Source: Halobellus litoreus (lineage in GTDB: Archaea; Halobacteriota; Halobacteria; Halobacteriales; Haloferacaceae). Taken from it: a DNA stretch of 64,000 nt. Shown here in pieces: positions 9,052-48,274 of this stretch. Both the position numbers and the translations under genes were made by a program. Numbering within the stretch: position 1 is the stretch's first letter; each line of letters starts with the position of its first letter. The notes below the pieces were generated by a model. The model did not search any database. It saw nothing but the letters and a program-made list of their open reading frames with translations, and was not told the origin of the DNA. The stretch spans positions 806,001 through 870,000 of the forward strand of contig NZ_JANHAW010000002.1 in NCBI RefSeq assembly GCF_024464595.1, in the 5' to 3' direction.

Positions 9052-9548
9052 CGCCACACCCAGACGTCGAGCGTTCCCCAGACGACGTCGCCGTCGCCCA
9101 TCGAGACGCTCACCGGGCGGTCGGCGTGATCGATCGCGACGCCCGCGGACTCGGGGGGCCGGCGGCCGTTGGTCCACCGTCCCTTCGGCGTCGTTACCGC
9201 GACGGCGACGCGGTAGCCGTCCGGCGTGGCCGGTCCCGCGCTCGGCAGTCCCACCGGCGAGAGGACGCCGCCCTCGCTCGCGTCGTCGTACACTCGTTCG
9301 AGCGTCGGTTCGGCGAGCGCGTTCTCCGTTTCGCCCGGCGTCACCGCCCCCAGCGTTGTCGCGTACAGCGAGAGACCGGTGCAGACCGCGAAGAGCGCGA
9401 TCAGGGCCACGACGGGCGTGGTCTGCGCCCGCGACGTGCCGCGCCCAGTGCCGCGGGCCGCTTCGGTATCGATTGCGTCGCGTGTGGCGGCGACGAGCGC
9501 GGCAAACGCAGCACGCGACAGCGGCTCACGCGTCGACGAGGACGACAT
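9048..9548 (-). CDS. Pilin-like subunit with class III-type signal (DUF7285-like)
   Basis: 166 residues. A long polar N-region ends in SRAQTTPVVALIALFAVCTG (about 39-58), very like the RAVSP-type processing site and hydrophobic helix of haloarchaeal pilins; this would be cut by a prepilin peptidase, leaving the helix to pack in a filament or anchor the protein. The remaining 100 residues form a small beta-rich domain ending in WGTLDVWVWR. It overlaps the upstream gene by 23 bases and the downstream one by four. The pilin-like role is inferred from the signal and neighbours; no prepilin peptidase gene is in this window. Confidence 0.8.
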   Translation of the reverse strand: MSSSSTREPLSRAAFAALVAATRDAIDTEAARGTGRGTSRAQTTPVVALIALFAVCTGLSLYATTLGAVTPGETENALAEPTLERVYDDASEGGVLSPVGLPSAGPATPDGYRVAVAVTTPKGRWTNGRRPPESAGVAIDHADRPVSVSMGDGDVVWGTLDVWVWR

Positions 9549-10005
9549 TTACTCCCTCCCAGGAGAGGCGGCGGACGATCAGGGTTCGGTCCACGGTGCG
9601 CCACGGAGCGTCGGTCGCGTTCGCCCGAGCATCGACGACAGCCTGTCTGAACGCATTCGGCGAGTCGAACACGCGCTCGGGCGGCGTCCCGTAGAGGACG
9701 TCACGCAGCGGTGAATCGTCGACCGGAACCGGCGTGACCGCTCCGAACGACAGCGTGGTGTGTGCCGTTCCCGACGCCGAGCGGAGTCCGATCCGACGCG
9801 TCCCGAGTCTGACTTCGTCGGCGTCGAGCGGATGTTCGGCGGTGGCGGCGTACTCCGCGGCGGCGACACGGTCGATCGTCGCGCCGGCGGCCCCGGCGTC
9901 CGGCGGCGGTGCCGTCGGAAGGCCGGCCGCCGCGCCGACGAGCGCGACGCCCGCGAGCGACAGCCCGATCCAGCCGTACCACGCGTCCACCGTGAGTTCG
10001 AACAT
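9526..10005 (-). CDS. Small membrane-anchored subunit, first gene of subunit operon (DUF7283-like)
   Basis: 159 residues: N-terminal hydrophobic helix (IGLSLAGVALVGAAAGLP, about 13-30) and a soluble domain with conserved-looking RTLIVRRLSWEGVNVVLVDA at the C-terminus. Function not recognised; by context a minor pilin or assembly component. It heads the run 10005-5069 and has its own promoter, with TATA box 10028-10035 and the GGGACCA heptamer 10014-10020 shared with three other promoters in this window. Confidence 0.8.
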   Translation of the reverse strand: MFELTVDAWYGWIGLSLAGVALVGAAAGLPTAPPPDAGAAGATIDRVAAAEYAATAEHPLDADEVRLGTRRIGLRSASGTAHTTLSFGAVTPVPVDDSPLRDVLYGTPPERVFDSPNAFRQAVVDARANATDAPWRTVDRTLIVRRLSWEGVNVVLVDA

Positions 10006-10035
10006 AGCCCCCCTGGTCCCGTGTCCGTATATAAA
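10006..10035 (-). promoter_or_regulatory. Promoter P1 with GGGACCA element, subunit operon
   Basis: TATA box TTTATATA at 10028-10035, then 7 bases, GGGACCA at 10014-10020, 8 bases, then the ATG at 10005. This spacing predicts a leaderless transcript. The same geometry recurs before 13974, 15007 and 48244. Confidence 0.75.
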
Positions 10036-10075
10036 CGTTCGCGGGGCGGTCCGCGTTCGTGCTCCCGACAGTCGG

Positions 10076-11833
10076 TCAGAACAGCATCGAAGCGCCCAGA
10101 AACGCCACGAGATACGTCGCCGTCGCGGCGAGCAGCGCGAGACCGACCCGATAGCCGACCAGCGTCCGATCGAGGCCGCGATCCAGCCCCGTCGCCACGG
10201 TCGTGAGGATGGCCGCGAGCGCGAGGACGTAGAGGCCGACGGCCGTTCCGAGCGTCGGCGGGGAGAGGGTCGCCGCGCCCGGCGCGGCCGACCCTGCCAG
10301 CGAGGCGCTTTCGGCGTTCGTCGCGCCCGACGCGGCCATCTGAGTGGCCATCGCGACAGTCGCGCCGCCGACGAGCGGGCCGAACAGCGCGGCCGTGTGA
10401 CTCAGCGTCCCCGTGATCGCCGCGAGTTCGCGTCGCGCCTCGCTCTCCACGCGTCGGAGTTCGGTCAGGTGGTCCGCCAGTCGGGTGAGAGTGTCGCCGG
10501 CGGGGCTGCCCTCCTCGGCGGCGACAGCGAGGAGCGAGGCCGTGGCGCGTGCGCGTCGACTCGGCAGGTGTCTGAGCGCGCCGTGCTCGCCGAGGAACGC
10601 GCGATAAACGTCGACCCGGAGGCGACGCTGGATCCCCGACGCCGACTCGAAGAGCTCGCTGGTCCGCCCGGTCGTCGCCGCCGCGGCCGAACCGATCGCC
10701 GATTCGACCGACTCGCCGGCACCGACGCGCCGCCCCACGACCGCCGTCGCATCCGCGAGACCGGCTTCCGTCTCGGTGACCGACCCCTGGACGGCGGCCA
10801 TCGGTCGGTAGTGCACCGCGAGCGCCGCGCCGACGCCCGCGCCGAGAGCACCGATGGGGGCCGCCCACGAGGCGACGGCGGTTCCGAGGAGAAAGCCGGA
10901 AGCGGCCCCCGCCGCGGCGGCCGCCAGCGCTCGCGTCGGCCCCGACGGGACGTCCGGGTGAGCGGCCGTCACGCGGGGCGGCGCGAGCGCGATGGGTCGC
11001 CGAAGGAGCAGCCACGCGCCGGCGCCGATCAGCCCGGCAGGGAGCGCCACGTCGTAGAGGACGACGAAGACGGACGCGGGGACGGTGACCCCGCCCGCGC
11101 GTGCAGCCGGCAGCACGCCGACGAGCGCCAGCGGGAGGAGAACCCCGAACGCGTAGATCCCGCTCGCCGGACCGCGGACCGCGCCCGCGAACTCGGCCAT
11201 CTCGGTCCGCGCCCCGTCGAGAACCGTCTCGAGCGCGCGGTCGAGCGCGGCGTCGCGCTCCTCCGCGGGCGCCTCGACGGCGGCCGACAGGAGCGCGACC
11301 GAGCGTTCGAGCGCGGGGAACCAGGGTCGCCACTCGGCGGTGAAGGCGTCGAACCCTGCGGTGGGTCCCGAGCGGGTCCGGTCGGCGTGCGCGCCGAGGC
11401 TCCGAGCGAGCGGCCCCCTCCCCGTCCGCGCGGCGAAGACTGCGGCGCGTTCGGGCGTCGCTTCCAGACGGAGGCGAAGCGCCGCGCGGGCGACGAGCCC
11501 CGGCGCGTCTCCCAAGGCACGCGTCCGGCGGAGCGTCGCGGCGGCGACCGGGAACCGGTGGATCACGTGCGTCGCCCCGAGGCCGACCCCCGCGGCCGCC
11601 GGGACCGACGCCGCCGCGGGAAGCGCTGGAAGCCCGACGAGGAACGCACAGAGCGCGAGGAGGGCCGTGGGAACGGCGGCGACGTACCCCGCCCGGACGA
11701 CGGTGTCGGCCCGGAGGTCGCTGTCGAGAAACGCCAGCGAACGGTGTAGTTCGTCCGTCGGATCCACCTCGTTCGGATACCGACGGGCGAGCGCGCGCAC
11801 GATCCGGTGAAGCCGGGAGACGGTCGCCGTCAT
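10076..11833 (-). CDS. TadC-like type II secretion/type IV pilus platform protein
   Basis: Polytopic inner-membrane platform on which the secretion ATPase acts. The product has 585 residues in two halves, each with a cytoplasmic helical T2SSF-like region followed by hydrophobic segments; the C-terminal half carries EEGSPAGDTLTRLADHLTELRRVESEARRELAAI, typical of TadC/GspF proteins. Hydrophobic clusters lie near 46-80, 225-275, 305-340 and 440-585. The ATG at 11833 overlaps the ATPase stop by one base (TGATG), so the pair is coupled; a GTG one codon earlier is possible. Ala/Gly content is very high. Confidence 0.9.
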   Translation of the reverse strand: MTATVSRLHRIVRALARRYPNEVDPTDELHRSLAFLDSDLRADTVVRAGYVAAVPTALLALCAFLVGLPALPAAASVPAAAGVGLGATHVIHRFPVAAATLRRTRALGDAPGLVARAALRLRLEATPERAAVFAARTGRGPLARSLGAHADRTRSGPTAGFDAFTAEWRPWFPALERSVALLSAAVEAPAEERDAALDRALETVLDGARTEMAEFAGAVRGPASGIYAFGVLLPLALVGVLPAARAGGVTVPASVFVVLYDVALPAGLIGAGAWLLLRRPIALAPPRVTAAHPDVPSGPTRALAAAAAGAASGFLLGTAVASWAAPIGALGAGVGAALAVHYRPMAAVQGSVTETEAGLADATAVVGRRVGAGESVESAIGSAAAATTGRTSELFESASGIQRRLRVDVYRAFLGEHGALRHLPSRRARATASLLAVAAEEGSPAGDTLTRLADHLTELRRVESEARRELAAITGTLSHTAALFGPLVGGATVAMATQMAASGATNAESASLAGSAAPGAATLSPPTLGTAVGLYVLALAAILTTVATGLDRGLDRTLVGYRVGLALLAATATYLVAFLGASMLF

Positions 11834-13974
11834 CACAGCTCACCGCGGCGACTCCGGGCACAGTCTTCGGGCGTCGTCAGTGCGGCCGCCGCCAGGCGGT
11901 CGAAGCGAGCGGCGCGCCGTTCCAGTCGCGAGAGGAGGGCTCCGTAGGGCTCGCGCGCTCGACAGCACCGTTCGAACACCGCGCTGTCGCCGCGATCGAT
12001 CGCCCCCGTCGATCGGAGCGCGCCGTCCCGGCGTTCGAACAGCGGGACGAACGTGGCGTCTTCGCCCGCCGTTCGCACCTCTTCGATCGCGGCCACGTGT
12101 CGGGAATCGCCCTCCCGCGCGCAGGTCACGACGAGGTCGGTGGCGCCGAACGAGGAGGCGGGGACGCCGAGGTCGGAGACGACCCGCTCGCGGACGGCGG
12201 CCGCGGAGTCGCCGTGGATCGTCCCCAGGACGGCGTGACCGTGCGCGCCGACCCGCATCGCCTCGTACAGCGATCCGGCCTCCTCGCCGCGGACCTCGCC
12301 GACGACCAGCGCGCCGTCGCCCAGTCGGAGTGCAGCGCGGAGCGCGTCGGTCGGAGTGAACCCACCGCGGCCGCCGCCCGATCCGCTTCCTCGGCCGCCC
12401 GATCCACCGCCTCCGCTCTCCGACCCGACTCCGCCGTCGGTGTGCAACGCCTGCACGTCGCGGCCGTGGTCCCGAAGCGCGTCGACCGGGAGTTCAGGGG
12501 TGTCCTCGATACTGACGAGTCGCGTCGTACTCGGGAGCTCCCAGAGCAGCGCCCCGAGGAGCGTGGTCTTGCCGGCCCCTCGCGTACCGGCCACGATTGT
12601 CGCCGCGCCGCGCTCGGCCGCGATCGAGAGAAACGCCGCGGCCGTGGCTGGAAGCGATCCGACGGAGATCAGCCGAGGCAGCGTCCAGGCGTCGCCGTCG
12701 CGAGCGCGGAACGCGAACCCGACGCCCTCACTCGCGGGCGCGGTCACGCCGGCGACGCGGATCCGCCGGCCCGTCTCGGCGACGACCGACGCGTCGAGCG
12801 TGGGCGAACTCCGGGAGAAGGCGCGACCGCTCTCGCGCCGGAACCGCGAGGCGAGCGACGCCGCCCCGTCGGGCGTCAACTGCACGTTCGTCGGCAGTCG
12901 CTCGCCGCCGACGACGACCCGCACCGGCGTCTCCGTCACCGGGGCCGAGACGACGACGTCGGAGATCCGCTCGTCGGCGAAGAGGTGCTCGAAGACCCCG
13001 AGGCCGTGCGTGTATCGATCCAGGACCGCGGCGAGCGTCTCCGTGGGGTCGTCGGGATCGGCGACGCGTCGCACCGCCCGTCCGGCGGCCCGCTCGCCGC
13101 CGGCGACCGAGCCGGTCGCGAGTACCTCGTAGGCGGCCGAGAGCGTTGCCGTCGCGTCGGGCTCCAATCCGTGTGCGACCGGTGAGAGATGGTAGATCGA
13201 CCGCTCGGCCGCGTCGTATATCTCCGCCGTCGCGCCGGTCGGGAGCGAGGTCGTCTCGCGGCGGGTGGAACCCGGAGGCGGGAGACGGGAGACCCGGGCC
13301 CGAGCGACCGCGGGGCCGACGACGGCCCGAAGCGCCGTCTGGTAGGGATCCGAGTCGCAGTCGTCGGGAGGCGCGTCCTCGGTTGAAGCGCTGTCCCAGA
13401 CGCGATCCGCCCCGGCCGCGAGACCGGACTCGGCCGCGATCCGCGCGAGTGCCCCCGCGCGCCCGGTCGCCTGACGCGCAGCAGCGAGCGGGTCCGAGCG
13501 GGCGCGCTCTGCGAGCGCTTCGTCGTGGAAGCGCGCTCGTTCGGCGAATCGCCCGGCCGCCAGCAGCAGCCCGACCGCCGCGTCGGTGTAGGCCCGTTCG
13601 TAGCCGTCGGACCGCGTTCGGACCGCGTCAACGTCGCGCGCTTCGAGCGACGAGATCACGGTCGCTCGACAGGCCGGATCCGACGCCAGATCGCCGTCCC
13701 CGGGACACTCCGAGGCGTCGACGACGAGTTCGCGCCGCTCCGAGAGGCCCGTGCCGGTCGGTTCCTCGACAGTCGGTCGACAGCGACACGCCTCGGCTCC
13801 GCCGCTGTCGACCGACTCTCGCGAGCCCCGGTCGCGGGTGTCCGCGGTTGCCGTGAGGCCCAGGGCGGCGGCGATTCCGGCCGCCGAGGTGGAGAGGTCG
13901 ACGAGCCGGGGAACGAGAGTCGTGAGCGGTTCCTCGGTGCTCTCGTCGGGAGCGCGGTCGGCGTCTCGGGTCAT
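11833..13974 (-). CDS. Type II/IV secretion system ATPase (GspE/TadA/PilT family)
   Basis: Hexameric motor ATPase for pilus assembly or secretion; 713 residues. The N-terminal 270 residues are variable and Cys/His-containing (EACRCRPT, SECPGDGD). The ATPase core has Walker A GTRGAGKTT near 462-470, an acidic Asp box SIEDTPELP, a Gly/Ser-rich spacer (ESGGGGSGGRGSGSGG), then Walker B and His box in LVVGEVRGEEAG and VLGTIHGDSA at about 550-590. The start is ATG 13974, supported by the TATA box at 13997-14004 and GGGACCA at 13983-13989; the longer frame running to 14670 overlaps the next gene and is not credible. It is coupled to the TadC-like platform downstream. Confidence 0.92.
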   Translation of the reverse strand: MTRDADRAPDESTEEPLTTLVPRLVDLSTSAAGIAAALGLTATADTRDRGSRESVDSGGAEACRCRPTVEEPTGTGLSERRELVVDASECPGDGDLASDPACRATVISSLEARDVDAVRTRSDGYERAYTDAAVGLLLAAGRFAERARFHDEALAERARSDPLAAARQATGRAGALARIAAESGLAAGADRVWDSASTEDAPPDDCDSDPYQTALRAVVGPAVARARVSRLPPPGSTRRETTSLPTGATAEIYDAAERSIYHLSPVAHGLEPDATATLSAAYEVLATGSVAGGERAAGRAVRRVADPDDPTETLAAVLDRYTHGLGVFEHLFADERISDVVVSAPVTETPVRVVVGGERLPTNVQLTPDGAASLASRFRRESGRAFSRSSPTLDASVVAETGRRIRVAGVTAPASEGVGFAFRARDGDAWTLPRLISVGSLPATAAAFLSIAAERGAATIVAGTRGAGKTTLLGALLWELPSTTRLVSIEDTPELPVDALRDHGRDVQALHTDGGVGSESGGGGSGGRGSGSGGGRGGFTPTDALRAALRLGDGALVVGEVRGEEAGSLYEAMRVGAHGHAVLGTIHGDSAAAVRERVVSDLGVPASSFGATDLVVTCAREGDSRHVAAIEEVRTAGEDATFVPLFERRDGALRSTGAIDRGDSAVFERCCRAREPYGALLSRLERRAARFDRLAAAALTTPEDCARSRRGEL

Positions 13975-14004
13975 AGCGCCGGTGGTCCCGTCTCCGTATA
14001 TAAA
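13975..14004 (-). promoter_or_regulatory. Promoter P2 with GGGACCA element, ATPase-platform operon
   Basis: TATA box TTTATATA at 13997-14004, 7 bases, GGGACCA at 13983-13989, 8 bases, then the ATG at 13974. The segment between TATA box and heptamer (CGGAGAC) is nearly the same as in P1 (CGGACAC). Confidence 0.75.
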
Positions 14005-14066
14005 CCGTCGGGCGGTCCGCAGAGCGCAGGCGGGGGCCGCTTCGCGTCCTGCGGGTAGTACTCGAT

Positions 14067-14528
14067 TCACCCGCGCGTGACGACGAGCGTCGGACGCCCG
14101 GCGTCGTCGACGAGGGCGACGTCGACGGCGTGCCGTCCCGACGCCGTGAAGACGACGGGGCCGTCGGGAGTGGCGAGCGGCACCGGAAGCGACAGTCCGC
14201 GGAGCCGCGTCGGAGAACCGCCGGACGCGTAGGCGACCACGGATCGGTTCCCCGGCCCGTCCGGTCGACCGCCGACCGCGACGAACGCCGGACGCGCGGC
14301 CGTCAGCGACGCCTCCGGAAGCCGGATCGCCACGCGGCGGCCGGCCGCGCGCGCCCGCCTCGGCACGGCGTCCTCGCTGGCGGCGAGGTGCTGGCCGGCC
14401 CGTTCGATCCGATCGATCGCCCCCTCGAGTTCGGCGTCGGTCCGCCCGGCCCGCGCGTCGTCGACCGCCGGGAGCGCGGCCGAAAGCGTCGCCAGCGTCA
14501 GGACCGCGGCGACGACGAGCCGGATCAC
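14067..14528 (-). CDS. Secreted or membrane-anchored small protein of pilus-like locus (DUF7311-like)
   Basis: 153 residues beginning with a signal peptide or anchor (MIRLVVAAVLTLATLSAALP), then a short helix (DAELEGAIDRIERAGQHLAAS) and a beta-rich domain ending VALVDDAGRPTLVVTRG. No catalytic motif seen. The GTG start at 14528 overlaps the stop of the coiled-coil gene by four bases (GTGA), so the two form one unit that precedes the ATPase gene. Function inferred from position only. Confidence 0.78.
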   Translation of the reverse strand: MIRLVVAAVLTLATLSAALPAVDDARAGRTDAELEGAIDRIERAGQHLAASEDAVPRRARAAGRRVAIRLPEASLTAARPAFVAVGGRPDGPGNRSVVAYASGGSPTRLRGLSLPVPLATPDGPVVFTASGRHAVDVALVDDAGRPTLVVTRG

Positions 14529-15007
14529 CGGAACGCGTCGCGGAGCCGCGCGGCGAGCGAGCCGTCGCTCGTGGTTTTCTTCCGGCTCTCGTCGGGGTCG
14601 CCCGTGAGGCAGCCCGAAACGGCAACGCGGTCAGTGCCGTCGCCGACGCTCGGATCGCTGACGGGATCACCGTCGGCGGGTGCGGAAGCTCCGGAATCGT
14701 CAGTTCGCTCCGGCGAGTTTGCCCGCTCCGTCTCGGGAATTCGGTCTCGGATCAGCCCGCGCTCGCCGTCCTGAAGCGTCCGTTCGAGCGTCTCGACCTT
14801 GGCGAGCGCCACGGACGCGCGCCGCTCGACGGCTTCGTCGACGGCGTCGACCCCGTCGAGGAGGCCGCGGACCGCGTCGAGTTCGGCTTCGACGGCCGTC
14901 AGCCGGCGGTCGACCGCGTCGAGTCGGTCCTCTCGGGCGGTCGGACGTTCATCGGTCCGAGGTGCCGCGTCCGTCGGGACCCCTGCGGAATCGTGATCGT
15001 TCGCCAT
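14525..15007 (-). CDS. Coiled-coil protein of pilus-like locus (DUF7310-like)
   Basis: 160 residues, cytoplasmic. Residues about 25-80 form a heptad-rich coiled coil (DRLDAVDRRLTAVEAELDAV then VETLERTLQDGERGL). The second half is Ser/Asp-rich and probably disordered, ending in a basic patch, DGSLAARLRDAFR. It could link the motor to other cell components. It is first of its two-gene unit, with promoter P3 directly upstream and divergent from the CetZ gene, whose start is 76 bases away. Confidence 0.78.
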   Translation of the reverse strand: MANDHDSAGVPTDAAPRTDERPTAREDRLDAVDRRLTAVEAELDAVRGLLDGVDAVDEAVERRASVALAKVETLERTLQDGERGLIRDRIPETERANSPERTDDSGASAPADGDPVSDPSVGDGTDRVAVSGCLTGDPDESRKKTTSDGSLAARLRDAFR

Positions 15008-15037
15008 ACCCCCCGTGGTCCCGGGATCACATATAAA
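15008..15037 (-). promoter_or_regulatory. Promoter P3 with GGGACCA element, in the gap shared with cetZ
   Basis: TATA-like TTTATATG at 15030-15037, 7 bases, GGGACCA at 15016-15022, 8 bases, ATG at 15007. Upstream of the TATA box the sequence CCGAGCG is also found before the MinD promoter at 48275-48281. The opposite strand serves cetZ, probably through TTCAAG at about 15053, 30 bases before its ATG. Confidence 0.75.
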
Positions 15038-15082: not shown

Positions 15083-16171
15083 ATGAAGTCCGTCCTGATT
15101 GGCGTCGGCCAGGCCGGCGGGAAACTCGCCCGCGAACTGGTCGAATACGACGAGCGGATGGGATTCGGCGCCGTCCGCGGCGCGGTGGGTATCAACACCG
15201 CGAAGGCAGACCTCCGCGACCTCCCCTTCGAGACCGTCCTGGTCGGCCAGGACCGCGTGAAGGGCCAAGGGGTCGGCGGCGACAACGAACTGGGTGCGGA
15301 AGTGATGCAGGCCGACATCCAGGAGGTCCTCGCTTCGCTCGACGGCCGCGTGACGGCCGGAACGGAGTCGATATTCGTCGTCGCCGGCCTCGGCGGCGGC
15401 ACCGGCAGCGGCGGCGCGCCGGTCGTCGCGAAGGAGCTGAAACGCATCTACGACGTTCCGGTCTACGGCCTCGGGATCCTCCCCGGACGCGACGAGGGCG
15501 CGATGTACCAAGTCAACGCCGGCCGGTCGCTGAAGACCTTCGCTCGGGAGGCCGACTCGCTGCTGCTCGTCGACAACGACGCCTTCCGCTCGGCCGGCGA
15601 GAGCGTGACCGAGGGCTTCGATTCGATCAACCGGGAGATCGCCAAGCGCGTCGGCCTCCTGCTCGCCTCCGGCGAGTCCGTCGAGGGGGTCGCCGAGAGC
15701 GTCGTCGACTCCTCGGAGATCATCAACACCCTCCGAAACGGCGGGATCGCCGCGCTCGGCTACGCGTCCGCGGAGGCCGCTCCCGACGCCGAGGGCAACA
15801 TCAACGCCGTGATGAGCACGACGCGTCGCGCGCTGCTGACGGGGTCGAGCCTCCCCGACGCCACCGACGCCGACGCCGCCCTCCTCGTCGTCGCCGGTGA
15901 GCAGGACGCCATCCCGCGGAAAGGCGTCGAGCGCGCCCGCCGCTGGGTCGAAGAGGAGACCGGAAGTCTGCAGGTCCGCGGCGGCGACTTCCCGCTGTCG
16001 AGCGGGCGCCTCGCGACGCTGATCCTGCTCGGCGGCGTCGAGCGCTCCGACCGACTGGAGGCGTTTATGGAGCGCGCGAAAGACGCCGAAGCGGCGGAGG
16101 CCGCGAACCGCGAAGAGCGGGCGGATCCCGGGGTGCAGTGGGGGAGCGACGAACTCGACGACCTGCTGTAG
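15083..16171 (+). CDS. cetZ: CetZ-family tubulin-like protein
   Basis: GTPase of the archaeal CetZ branch of the tubulin/FtsZ superfamily, which in characterised haloarchaea governs cell shape and motility. 362 residues: nucleotide loop GVGQAGGKLAREL at 7-19, the CetZ-type stretch VGQDRVKGQGVGGDNELGAE at 54-73, tubulin signature GGGTGSG at 104-110, and a C-terminal acidic tail WGSDELDDLL. It is most like CetZ, not FtsZ1/2, because of the N-terminal NTAKADL and GVGGDNELGAE motifs. It is transcribed divergently from the pilus-like locus, suggesting positional or regulatory linkage. Confidence 0.93.
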   Translation: MKSVLIGVGQAGGKLARELVEYDERMGFGAVRGAVGINTAKADLRDLPFETVLVGQDRVKGQGVGGDNELGAEVMQADIQEVLASLDGRVTAGTESIFVVAGLGGGTGSGGAPVVAKELKRIYDVPVYGLGILPGRDEGAMYQVNAGRSLKTFAREADSLLLVDNDAFRSAGESVTEGFDSINREIAKRVGLLLASGESVEGVAESVVDSSEIINTLRNGGIAALGYASAEAAPDAEGNINAVMSTTRRALLTGSSLPDATDADAALLVVAGEQDAIPRKGVERARRWVEEETGSLQVRGGDFPLSSGRLATLILLGGVERSDRLEAFMERAKDAEAAEAANREERADPGVQWGSDELDDLL

Positions 16172-47401: not shown

Positions 47402-48244
47402 TTAGGTGTTCGGTCGCTCGGAGAGGGAGTCGGCGAGTTCGTCGTACGCGCGTCGGACGGCCGGGTCGCAGAGCGGGTCGGCGGCCGTCGAGGGGGCGGC
47501 CGGCGGCACCGCCCCGAGGATCCGACACCCGAGGAGGTCCTCGACGCCCGGCGGTGCGAGTCGCGCTCGGGTGAGCGCGCCGCCGACGACCGGCGTCCCG
47601 ACCGCGCGCGCCATCGCGGCCGTCTTCGCCGCGTCGCGGAGCGCGGCGACGCAGGGCGTCGCGACGATGAGGACGCCGTCGGCGACCCGCAGCGGGACCG
47701 TCGCGTCCGGTCCGGCACCGGCGGGGCAGTCGACGAGGACGGTCACGGGGACGTCCCTGTCGGTGGATCGAGCGTCGAATCCGCCGCCGCTTCGACTGTC
47801 GCGCTCGCTGACGAAGCCACGGCCTCCGGCGTCCCGCTCGCCGGCGACGCCGCCGCTTCGGCCGCCGGGCCCGCTAACGACGCCCCCGCTCCGGTCGTCG
47901 CAGTCGCTCCCGACGCCGTCGCGACCCCGACCGTCGACCGCGTCGTCGCCGACAACCACGGGAGACGCCCCCGCCTCGCGCTCCCGAAGCCGACGCAACC
48001 GACCGCCGATTCCGTCTGGCGCGTCCCCCGACGCGGGAACGATCCGCGTGTCGTCGGTCGACGCCGGATCCGCGTGTCCGCGACCGCCCGGGGCGGCCGC
48101 CCGCGGGACGCCGGCCATCGCGTGGAGGTTCGGGAGGTCGCAGTCGGCGTCGACGGCGAGCGTCGGGCCGTCGATCGCGCGGGCCAACCCGAGCGTCGTC
48201 GTCGTCTTGCCGCTGCCTCCCTTGCCGCCGGCGATCGCGAGCAT
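47402..48244 (-). CDS. MinD/ParA-family ATPase with a large disordered insert
   Basis: 280 residues. Deviant Walker A GGKGGSGKTT at 6-15 and the signature TLAVDADCDLPNLHAM (28-43) are intact, as is the A'-like VTVLVDCPAGAGPDA (about 169-183). Between them about 100 residues (60-165) are Gly/Arg/Asp/Ser-rich and probably disordered. ParA/MinD proteins position cellular machines such as archaella, chemoreceptors and pili. Promoter P4 upstream shares the GGGACCA element with the pilus-like locus, linking this gene to that system. C-terminal amphipathic membrane helix not obvious. Confidence 0.85.
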   Translation of the reverse strand: MLAIAGGKGGSGKTTTTLGLARAIDGPTLAVDADCDLPNLHAMAGVPRAAAPGGRGHADPASTDDTRIVPASGDAPDGIGGRLRRLREREAGASPVVVGDDAVDGRGRDGVGSDCDDRSGGVVSGPGGRSGGVAGERDAGGRGFVSERDSRSGGGFDARSTDRDVPVTVLVDCPAGAGPDATVPLRVADGVLIVATPCVAALRDAAKTAAMARAVGTPVVGGALTRARLAPPGVEDLLGCRILGAVPPAAPSTAADPLCDPAVRRAYDELADSLSERPNT

Positions 48245-48274
48245 ACCGCCCGTGGTCCCGGCCTCGTATTTGAA
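48245..48274 (-). promoter_or_regulatory. Promoter P4 with GGGACCA element, MinD-like operon
   Basis: TATA-like TTCAAATA at 48267-48274, 7 bases, GGGACCA at 48253-48259, 8 bases, ATG at 48244. Same geometry as P1-P3, 33 kb away. Confidence 0.7.

Follow-up and report, generated by a model that had tools for sequence, protein, structure and literature searches.

A TATA-phased G/C-rich heptamer as a putative haloarchaeal promoter signature shared by a pilus-like locus and a multi-copy structured RNA

Introduction

Archaeal promoters are usually described in terms of a BRE, a TATA box and a weak −10/initiator region. For haloarchaea, the core promoter is given as BRE–TATA–WW, with the A/T-rich WW element near −10 as a known part (Brenneis et al. 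2007, as cited in PMC4983044). This −10 region may also hold regulatory sites, in that the xacR and sptA operators cover the WW motif and are semi-palindromes of single promoters (PMC6085418). In Haloferax volcanii, most sites of the CdrS regulon lie 41–110 nt upstream of the TSS and share a symmetric motif (PMC8406309). The same species possesses intergenic, structured, ribosome-associated RNAs of 74–111 nt with no detectable protein: rancRNA_s194 and IG1.7 (PMC6104027) and sRNA_61 (PMC12482152).

Here, we describe a promoter element that came to light in a 64,000-nt stretch of a Halobellus genome (hereafter, the window). Like BRE–TATA–WW promoters, those with the element have a TATA box (TTTATATA) at about −30 to −23 before predicted leaderless starts; unlike them, they carry G[GC][GA][GA]CCA at −15 to −9 where WW would be, and a conserved CGA directly after TATA. 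With CdrS, the element shares the features of a small haloarchaeal regulon and clients of the cell-division or cytoskeleton type, whereas it lies 9–15 nt upstream of the start codon, after TATA, and is non-symmetric—a motif position that rules out the CdrS regulon as its identity. It resembles the xacR and sptA operators as a candidate regulatory site over the −10 region, yet occurs order-wide and, in the genome of this Halobellus, at tens of promoters. In the host genome, the element precedes a multi-copy RNA comparable in size to s194, IG1.7 and sRNA_61, a likeness judged by description only; this RNA differs in its promoter element and its start-X-stop ORF, neither of which appears in the accessible portions of those descriptions. 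The one literature match for GGGACCA in haloarchaea concerned G-quadruplexes in archaea, and those for GCGGCCA with Haloferax were unrelated, judging by title and abstract.

Results

A promoter design shared by three units of a pilus-like locus

The minus strand of the window carries TTTATAT(A/G)-N7-GGGACCA-N8-ATG ahead of the genes starting at 10005, 13974 and 15007, and both spacings are exact at all three, just as a previous sequence-only reading had stated (Table 1). The clients comprise a T2SSE-type ATPase and a T2SSF-type membrane protein, as in a Tad/type IV pilus assembly locus. The ATPase additionally matched NCBIfam TIGR03819 (E=7e-32, below that model's cut-off), and a related-locus search returned three usable named relatives, all from Halobellus and with 71–73% identity. 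A CetZ tubulin-family gene (15083-16171, plus strand) is divergent from the DUF7310 unit of this locus.

While the three copies listed in the sequence-only reading are real, a fourth in the window, ahead of a MinD-like gene, had been missed, as had a fifth elsewhere in the host genome, ahead of the gene for a small DUF7382 protein. DUF7382 and DUF7283 both have an N-terminal hydrophobic segment. Presented originally as a design of the pilus-like locus, the element is indeed carried by all three of its units, but it is not pilus-specific: in the host genome, most copies appear to drive the multi-copy RNA.

Table 1 Promoter elements and genes of the window, and one example of the RNA from elsewhere in the host genome
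Feature	Position	Strand	Evidence or remark
TATA box TTTATATA, DUF7283 unit	10035-10028	−	sequence; −30..−23 from ATG
GGGACCA, DUF7283 unit	10020-10014	−	−15..−9; also in orthologous promoters
DUF7283 protein, first gene of unit 1	9526..10005, ATG 10005-10003	−	Pfam PF23954 E=1.2e-54
TATA box TTTATATA, TadA-like unit	14004-13997	−	sequence
GGGACCA, TadA-like unit	13989-13983	−	−15..−9; conserved before TadA orthologues
TadA/T2SSE-like secretion ATPase, first gene of unit 2	11833..13974, ATG 13974-13972	−	Pfam PF00437 E=1.1e-20, over cut-off
TadC/T2SSF-like membrane protein, second gene of unit 2	10076..11836	−	Pfam PF00482 E=2.3e-5, 24.8 bits vs cut-off 25.2
TATA box TTTATATG, DUF7310 unit	15037-15030	−	sequence
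GGGACCA, DUF7310 unit	15022-15016	−	−15..−9; conserved before DUF7310 orthologues
DUF7310 coiled-coil protein, first gene of unit 3	14525..15007, ATG 15007-15005	−	Pfam PF23991 E=6e-16
DUF7311 protein, second gene of unit 3	14067..14528	−	Pfam PF23993 E=9e-42
TATA-like box TTCAAATA, MinD-like gene, weaker than the pilus-locus boxes	48267..48274	−	
GGGACCA (fourth window copy), MinD-like gene	48259-48253	−	−15..−9; also before orthologous MinD-like genes
MinD/ParA-like ATPase	47402..48244	−	Pfam CbiA E=9e-10; TIGR01969 below cut-off
Multi-copy RNA, example copy (L107)	host genome G000:C2:880995-881050		copies spread over contigs C1-C3

Occurrence and conservation across the order

The window shows no enrichment of the bare heptamer GGGACCA (11 occurrences, with 7.8 expected). 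GGGACCA-N8-ATG with at most one mismatch occurred there 10 times against an expected 2.0, a count that none of 100 shuffles reached. In the host genome (3.86 Mb), the exact pattern with its TATA context had four matches and its controls none, and the degenerate promoter with up to three mismatches had 35 against two. The sequence-only reading had proposed scanning a haloarchaeal genome set and tallying the families downstream. Across 293 genomes of the order, WTAT-N8-GGGACCA-N8-ATG returned 27 matches versus one for the reversed pattern, and the degenerate TTTAWRNNNGANNNCGSRRCCA-N8-ATG, searched in 106 genomes of the order, returned 62 versus zero for its reversed-pattern control; the order-wide matches precede DUF7283, MinD-like, NucS-like (mostly one family), DUF7857, Cas4-like and HNH genes.

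The element also stands before orthologues across many haloarchaeal families. It precedes nearly all DUF7382 orthologues with a placeable start, as well as 25 of 30 DUF7310/TadA loci drawn from many families, where the geometry is the same and the heptamer is degenerate; when other trinucleotides were substituted for CCA in the latter search, 1–4 loci were found, or eight for CGA, which is a plausible variant. The versions before DUF7382, DUF7310 and TadA orthologues include GGGACCA, GCGGCCA, GCGACCA, GGAACCA, GAAACCA and GGGGCCA. Conservation in orthologous promoters, the absence of which had been named beforehand as grounds for refuting the proposal, was seen for DUF7382, DUF7310/TadA, DUF7283, MinD, NucS-like and DUF7857 genes, and together with the order-wide clients it supports the claim of one promoter design common to a regulon. 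Host-genome clients further include a phosphoglucomutase (L100), a second ParA-like ATPase (L098) and RPA (L095), the last of which also follows the element in another family, in three of its genera (L034, L037, L038). Since RPA has an apparent long leader in the host genome and in these genera, proximity to the start codon is not universal.

Chance, or the recent copying of a single promoter inside the locus, would be compatible with the mere three copies of the reported locus and with the unremarkable frequency of the bare heptamer. Against this stand the 35–62 matches versus 0–2 in controls, and the same genes in other genera carry the element amid diverged spacers and flanks. The controls and the orthologue conservation rule out this explanation, whose probability we put at virtually nil.

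A multi-copy RNA downstream of the element

Most further element matches in the host genome have GTG in place of ATG, lack a long ORF and lie ahead of one RNA family. A covariance model built from its 56-nt core identified 50 copies in the host genome (E 1e-16 to 3e-7), 28 in a congener and 1–17 in other genomes, counts in which related copies are not independent and copies without the mini-ORF described below may be under-sampled, the model taking in the first 16 positions. At least one copy is present in 53 of 96 complete genomes of the order, and all ten further genomes of the same family contain the RNA (2–21 copies). The promoter geometry is found at 50 of the 50 host-genome copies, 48 of which have CCA exactly at −11 to −9. 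Other genera have copies as well (L013, L033, L040, L157-L185, L275-L304 in our numbering of loci), and those inspected are likewise preceded by the element promoter.

The family is undescribed, overlooked by standard annotation and reaches up to 50 copies per genome. Rfam covariance models gave no match at E<=0.5 for nine loci, and one unrelated chance hit (E=0.54) in a comparison of ten loci, which leaves no known Rfam family for them; ARAGORN predicted no tRNA genes among the GTG-class clients, ruling out that identity too. Phage records returned no match, and the window itself holds no convincing copy, the best being a partial match with E 0.006. On a Halobellus limi plasmid (NZ_CP031312.1, 296020-299106, L305), three places resemble the RNA; the copy inspected is intergenic between minus-strand genes and coincides with no annotated feature.

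Phasing to TATA and replacement of the WW element

The consensus is degenerate, about G[GC][GA][GA]CCA, with GGGACCA being one version; 12 of 112 RNA promoters deviate from a strict heptamer regular expression, mostly by one base. Among 100 RNA promoters scored, the distance from the start of TATA to CCA is 19 bp in 92, while CCA is followed by the start codon after 8 bases in 84 cases and after 9 in 15. Of the earlier claim that sequence and spacing are both conserved, the geometry stands, but the heptamer is degenerate and the start codon slides by one base. Because its register follows TATA rather than the start codon, the element is a promoter element at the DNA level and not an RNA element, phased to the initiation complex and expected to lie upstream of the transcript.

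The sequence-only reading had also entertained an RNA-level or initiation element. As a rival, we considered an element acting at the RNA level or in translation initiation, be it as a leader, a Shine-Dalgarno-like sequence or a start-codon context. That the start codon is equally far from the element in all three window genes speaks for such a role, but a TATA box at −30 should place the 5' end of the transcript on the start codon itself, the distance to TATA is held while that to the start varies, and the element also lies ahead of RNAs without a long ORF. On the grounds of TATA phasing we reject this role, which we consider highly improbable.

For comparison, we used host-genome promoters of the same geometry (TTTAW-N25-ATG; 119 in total, 100 listed). 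CCA occupies −11 to −9 in six among the 100 listed of these 119, all six of which have the element, whereas the other 94 listed have A or T at −11 and −10 in 70% and 62% of cases, respectively. The corresponding values for the 50 host-genome RNA promoters are only 4% and 0%, and conservation in this set is 98% for G−15, 96% for C−11, and 100% for both C−10 and A−9. Where ordinary promoters of the same genome have the A/T-rich WW at −10, this class has the G/C-rich element instead. This overturns the earlier statement that no core element is expected at this position, which normally holds the WW element.

One might suppose an ordinary strong promoter sub-type, in which housekeeping TFB/TFE have a sequence preference at rigid, highly transcribed leaderless units and no dedicated factor is involved. 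In its favor, small RNAs with high expression could make up many of the clients, and no regulator was found; G/C-rich sequence in place of WW should, however, weaken housekeeping initiation, and the element occurs in only a few percent of same-geometry promoters. We deem this sub-type distinctly improbable.

The main rival is a classical operator, at which a dedicated repressor (or activator) would sit at −15 to −9 over the melting region while ordinary TBP/TFB initiate. The negative elements over the WW motif reported for sptA and xacR (PMC6085418) provide a precedent, and a regulator would suit a regulon that is restricted, has a functional theme and carries a specific site. Yet exact 19-bp TATA–CCA phasing in >90% of promoters and the lack of a palindrome or second half-site are both unusual for operators, the site replaces WW instead of being added to it, and none of the clients was conspicuous as a regulator gene. 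On balance, an operator seems rather unlikely.

Reading within initiation is likelier than a freely placed operator because an element that normally aids melting is replaced and its substitute is held in place with one-base precision. We favor the view that the heptamer is probably the best-conserved stretch of a specialised core promoter in haloarchaea, read within the initiation complex, through which one signal switches a small regulon. This promoter would take the form TTTATATAcGAnnnC-G[GC][GA][GA]CCA; the start codon, here counted as +1 of a leaderless transcript, would follow 8 or 9 bases on, and the promoter's G/C-rich site at −15 to −9, rigidly phased to TATA, would stand in for the −10 WW. 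The reader may be an alternative TFB or an accessory factor contacting the TBP/TFB/RNAP assembly. A single signal would then switch the small conserved regulon together, presumably by activation and not repression.

A start-X-stop mini-ORF before a pseudoknot

At its predicted +1, the RNA has a start codon, which at 112 distinct loci is GTG (89), ATG (14), ATT, ATC or ATA (8) or another codon (1). The middle codon can be of almost any kind (21 types), and a stop codon follows at +7 to +9 in 108 of the 112 (TGA 89, TAG 12, TAA 7). TGG never occupies the stop position, whereas independent variation of the second and third stop positions would yield 9.9 such cases; the RNA model does not itself enforce TGA, TAG or TAA over TGG. 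In a single copy (L303), two sense codons precede the stop.

The mini-ORF is followed by a hairpin, P1, with two-sided changes in 8 of its 10 pairs (0 of 500 shuffles). A 7-bp helix joins the P1 loop to the 3' end, giving an H-type pseudoknot, and one of its pairs uses all four Watson-Crick types. This helix is paired in 91% of cases versus 77% in shuffled controls (maximum 80%), the former value being lowered by some 3' tails that the script mis-assigned. The pseudoknot linkers measure about 14 nt in most genera; those of Halobellus (L107-L156) are variable, hairpin-rich and mostly 32–85 nt long, with some over 100. At the 3' end lies a conserved tail, CTGTTCGC, after which T-run terminators are not above background (3 of 106 loci).

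With TATA at −30 and the mini-ORF where it is, transcription would begin at +1 and the RNA would be leaderless. A leaderless start-X-stop directly before a pseudoknot suggests that a ribosome may be engaged and terminate at once.

Discussion

The wider finding of a promoter class together with its RNA is more interesting than the pilus-locus pattern. Taken at the level of sequence, the element is an order-wide haloarchaeal promoter signature, with dozens of previously unannotated structured small RNAs as its main users. Tentatively, we can envisage a dedicated promoter class with its own initiation factor, whose chief product would be leaderless RNAs that bring the ribosome to a start-X-stop before a pseudoknot, trapping or sensing it, under common regulation with a Tad-like pilus, MinD/ParA-like ATPases and DNA-processing genes. 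The role of the RNA would then be ribosome-directed.

Eukaryotic minimal start-stop uORFs likewise use a one- or two-codon translation event for regulation. In the archaeal case, the mini-ORF would instead open a leaderless RNA that stands on its own, and a pseudoknot lies downstream of it. As far as our literature search reached, this leaderless start-X-stop design is hitherto unreported. If true, the promoter class would rest on a second core element, sequence-specific, phased to TATA and conserved throughout the order; this would imply sigma-like promoter classes in Archaea and would allow the functions of the many haloarchaeal TFBs to be assayed directly. An uncharacterised Tad-like pilus locus and abundant ribosome-associated haloarchaeal sRNAs would become open to functional tests.

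With respect to the clients, their theme (a Tad-like ATPase, ParA-like ATPases, an ssDNA-binding protein and nucleases) would, speculatively, fit a DNA-uptake or DNA-repair programme.

In one locus (L028), DUF7382 and a HerA-like gene diverge, with the element on each side; in two others (L191 and L194), DUF7382 divergently adjoins the DUF7310 locus. In the three non-host genera with RPA as a client, an ORF upstream of RPA ends in a conserved peptide, M..NxYARxTHAR, that overlaps the RPA start.
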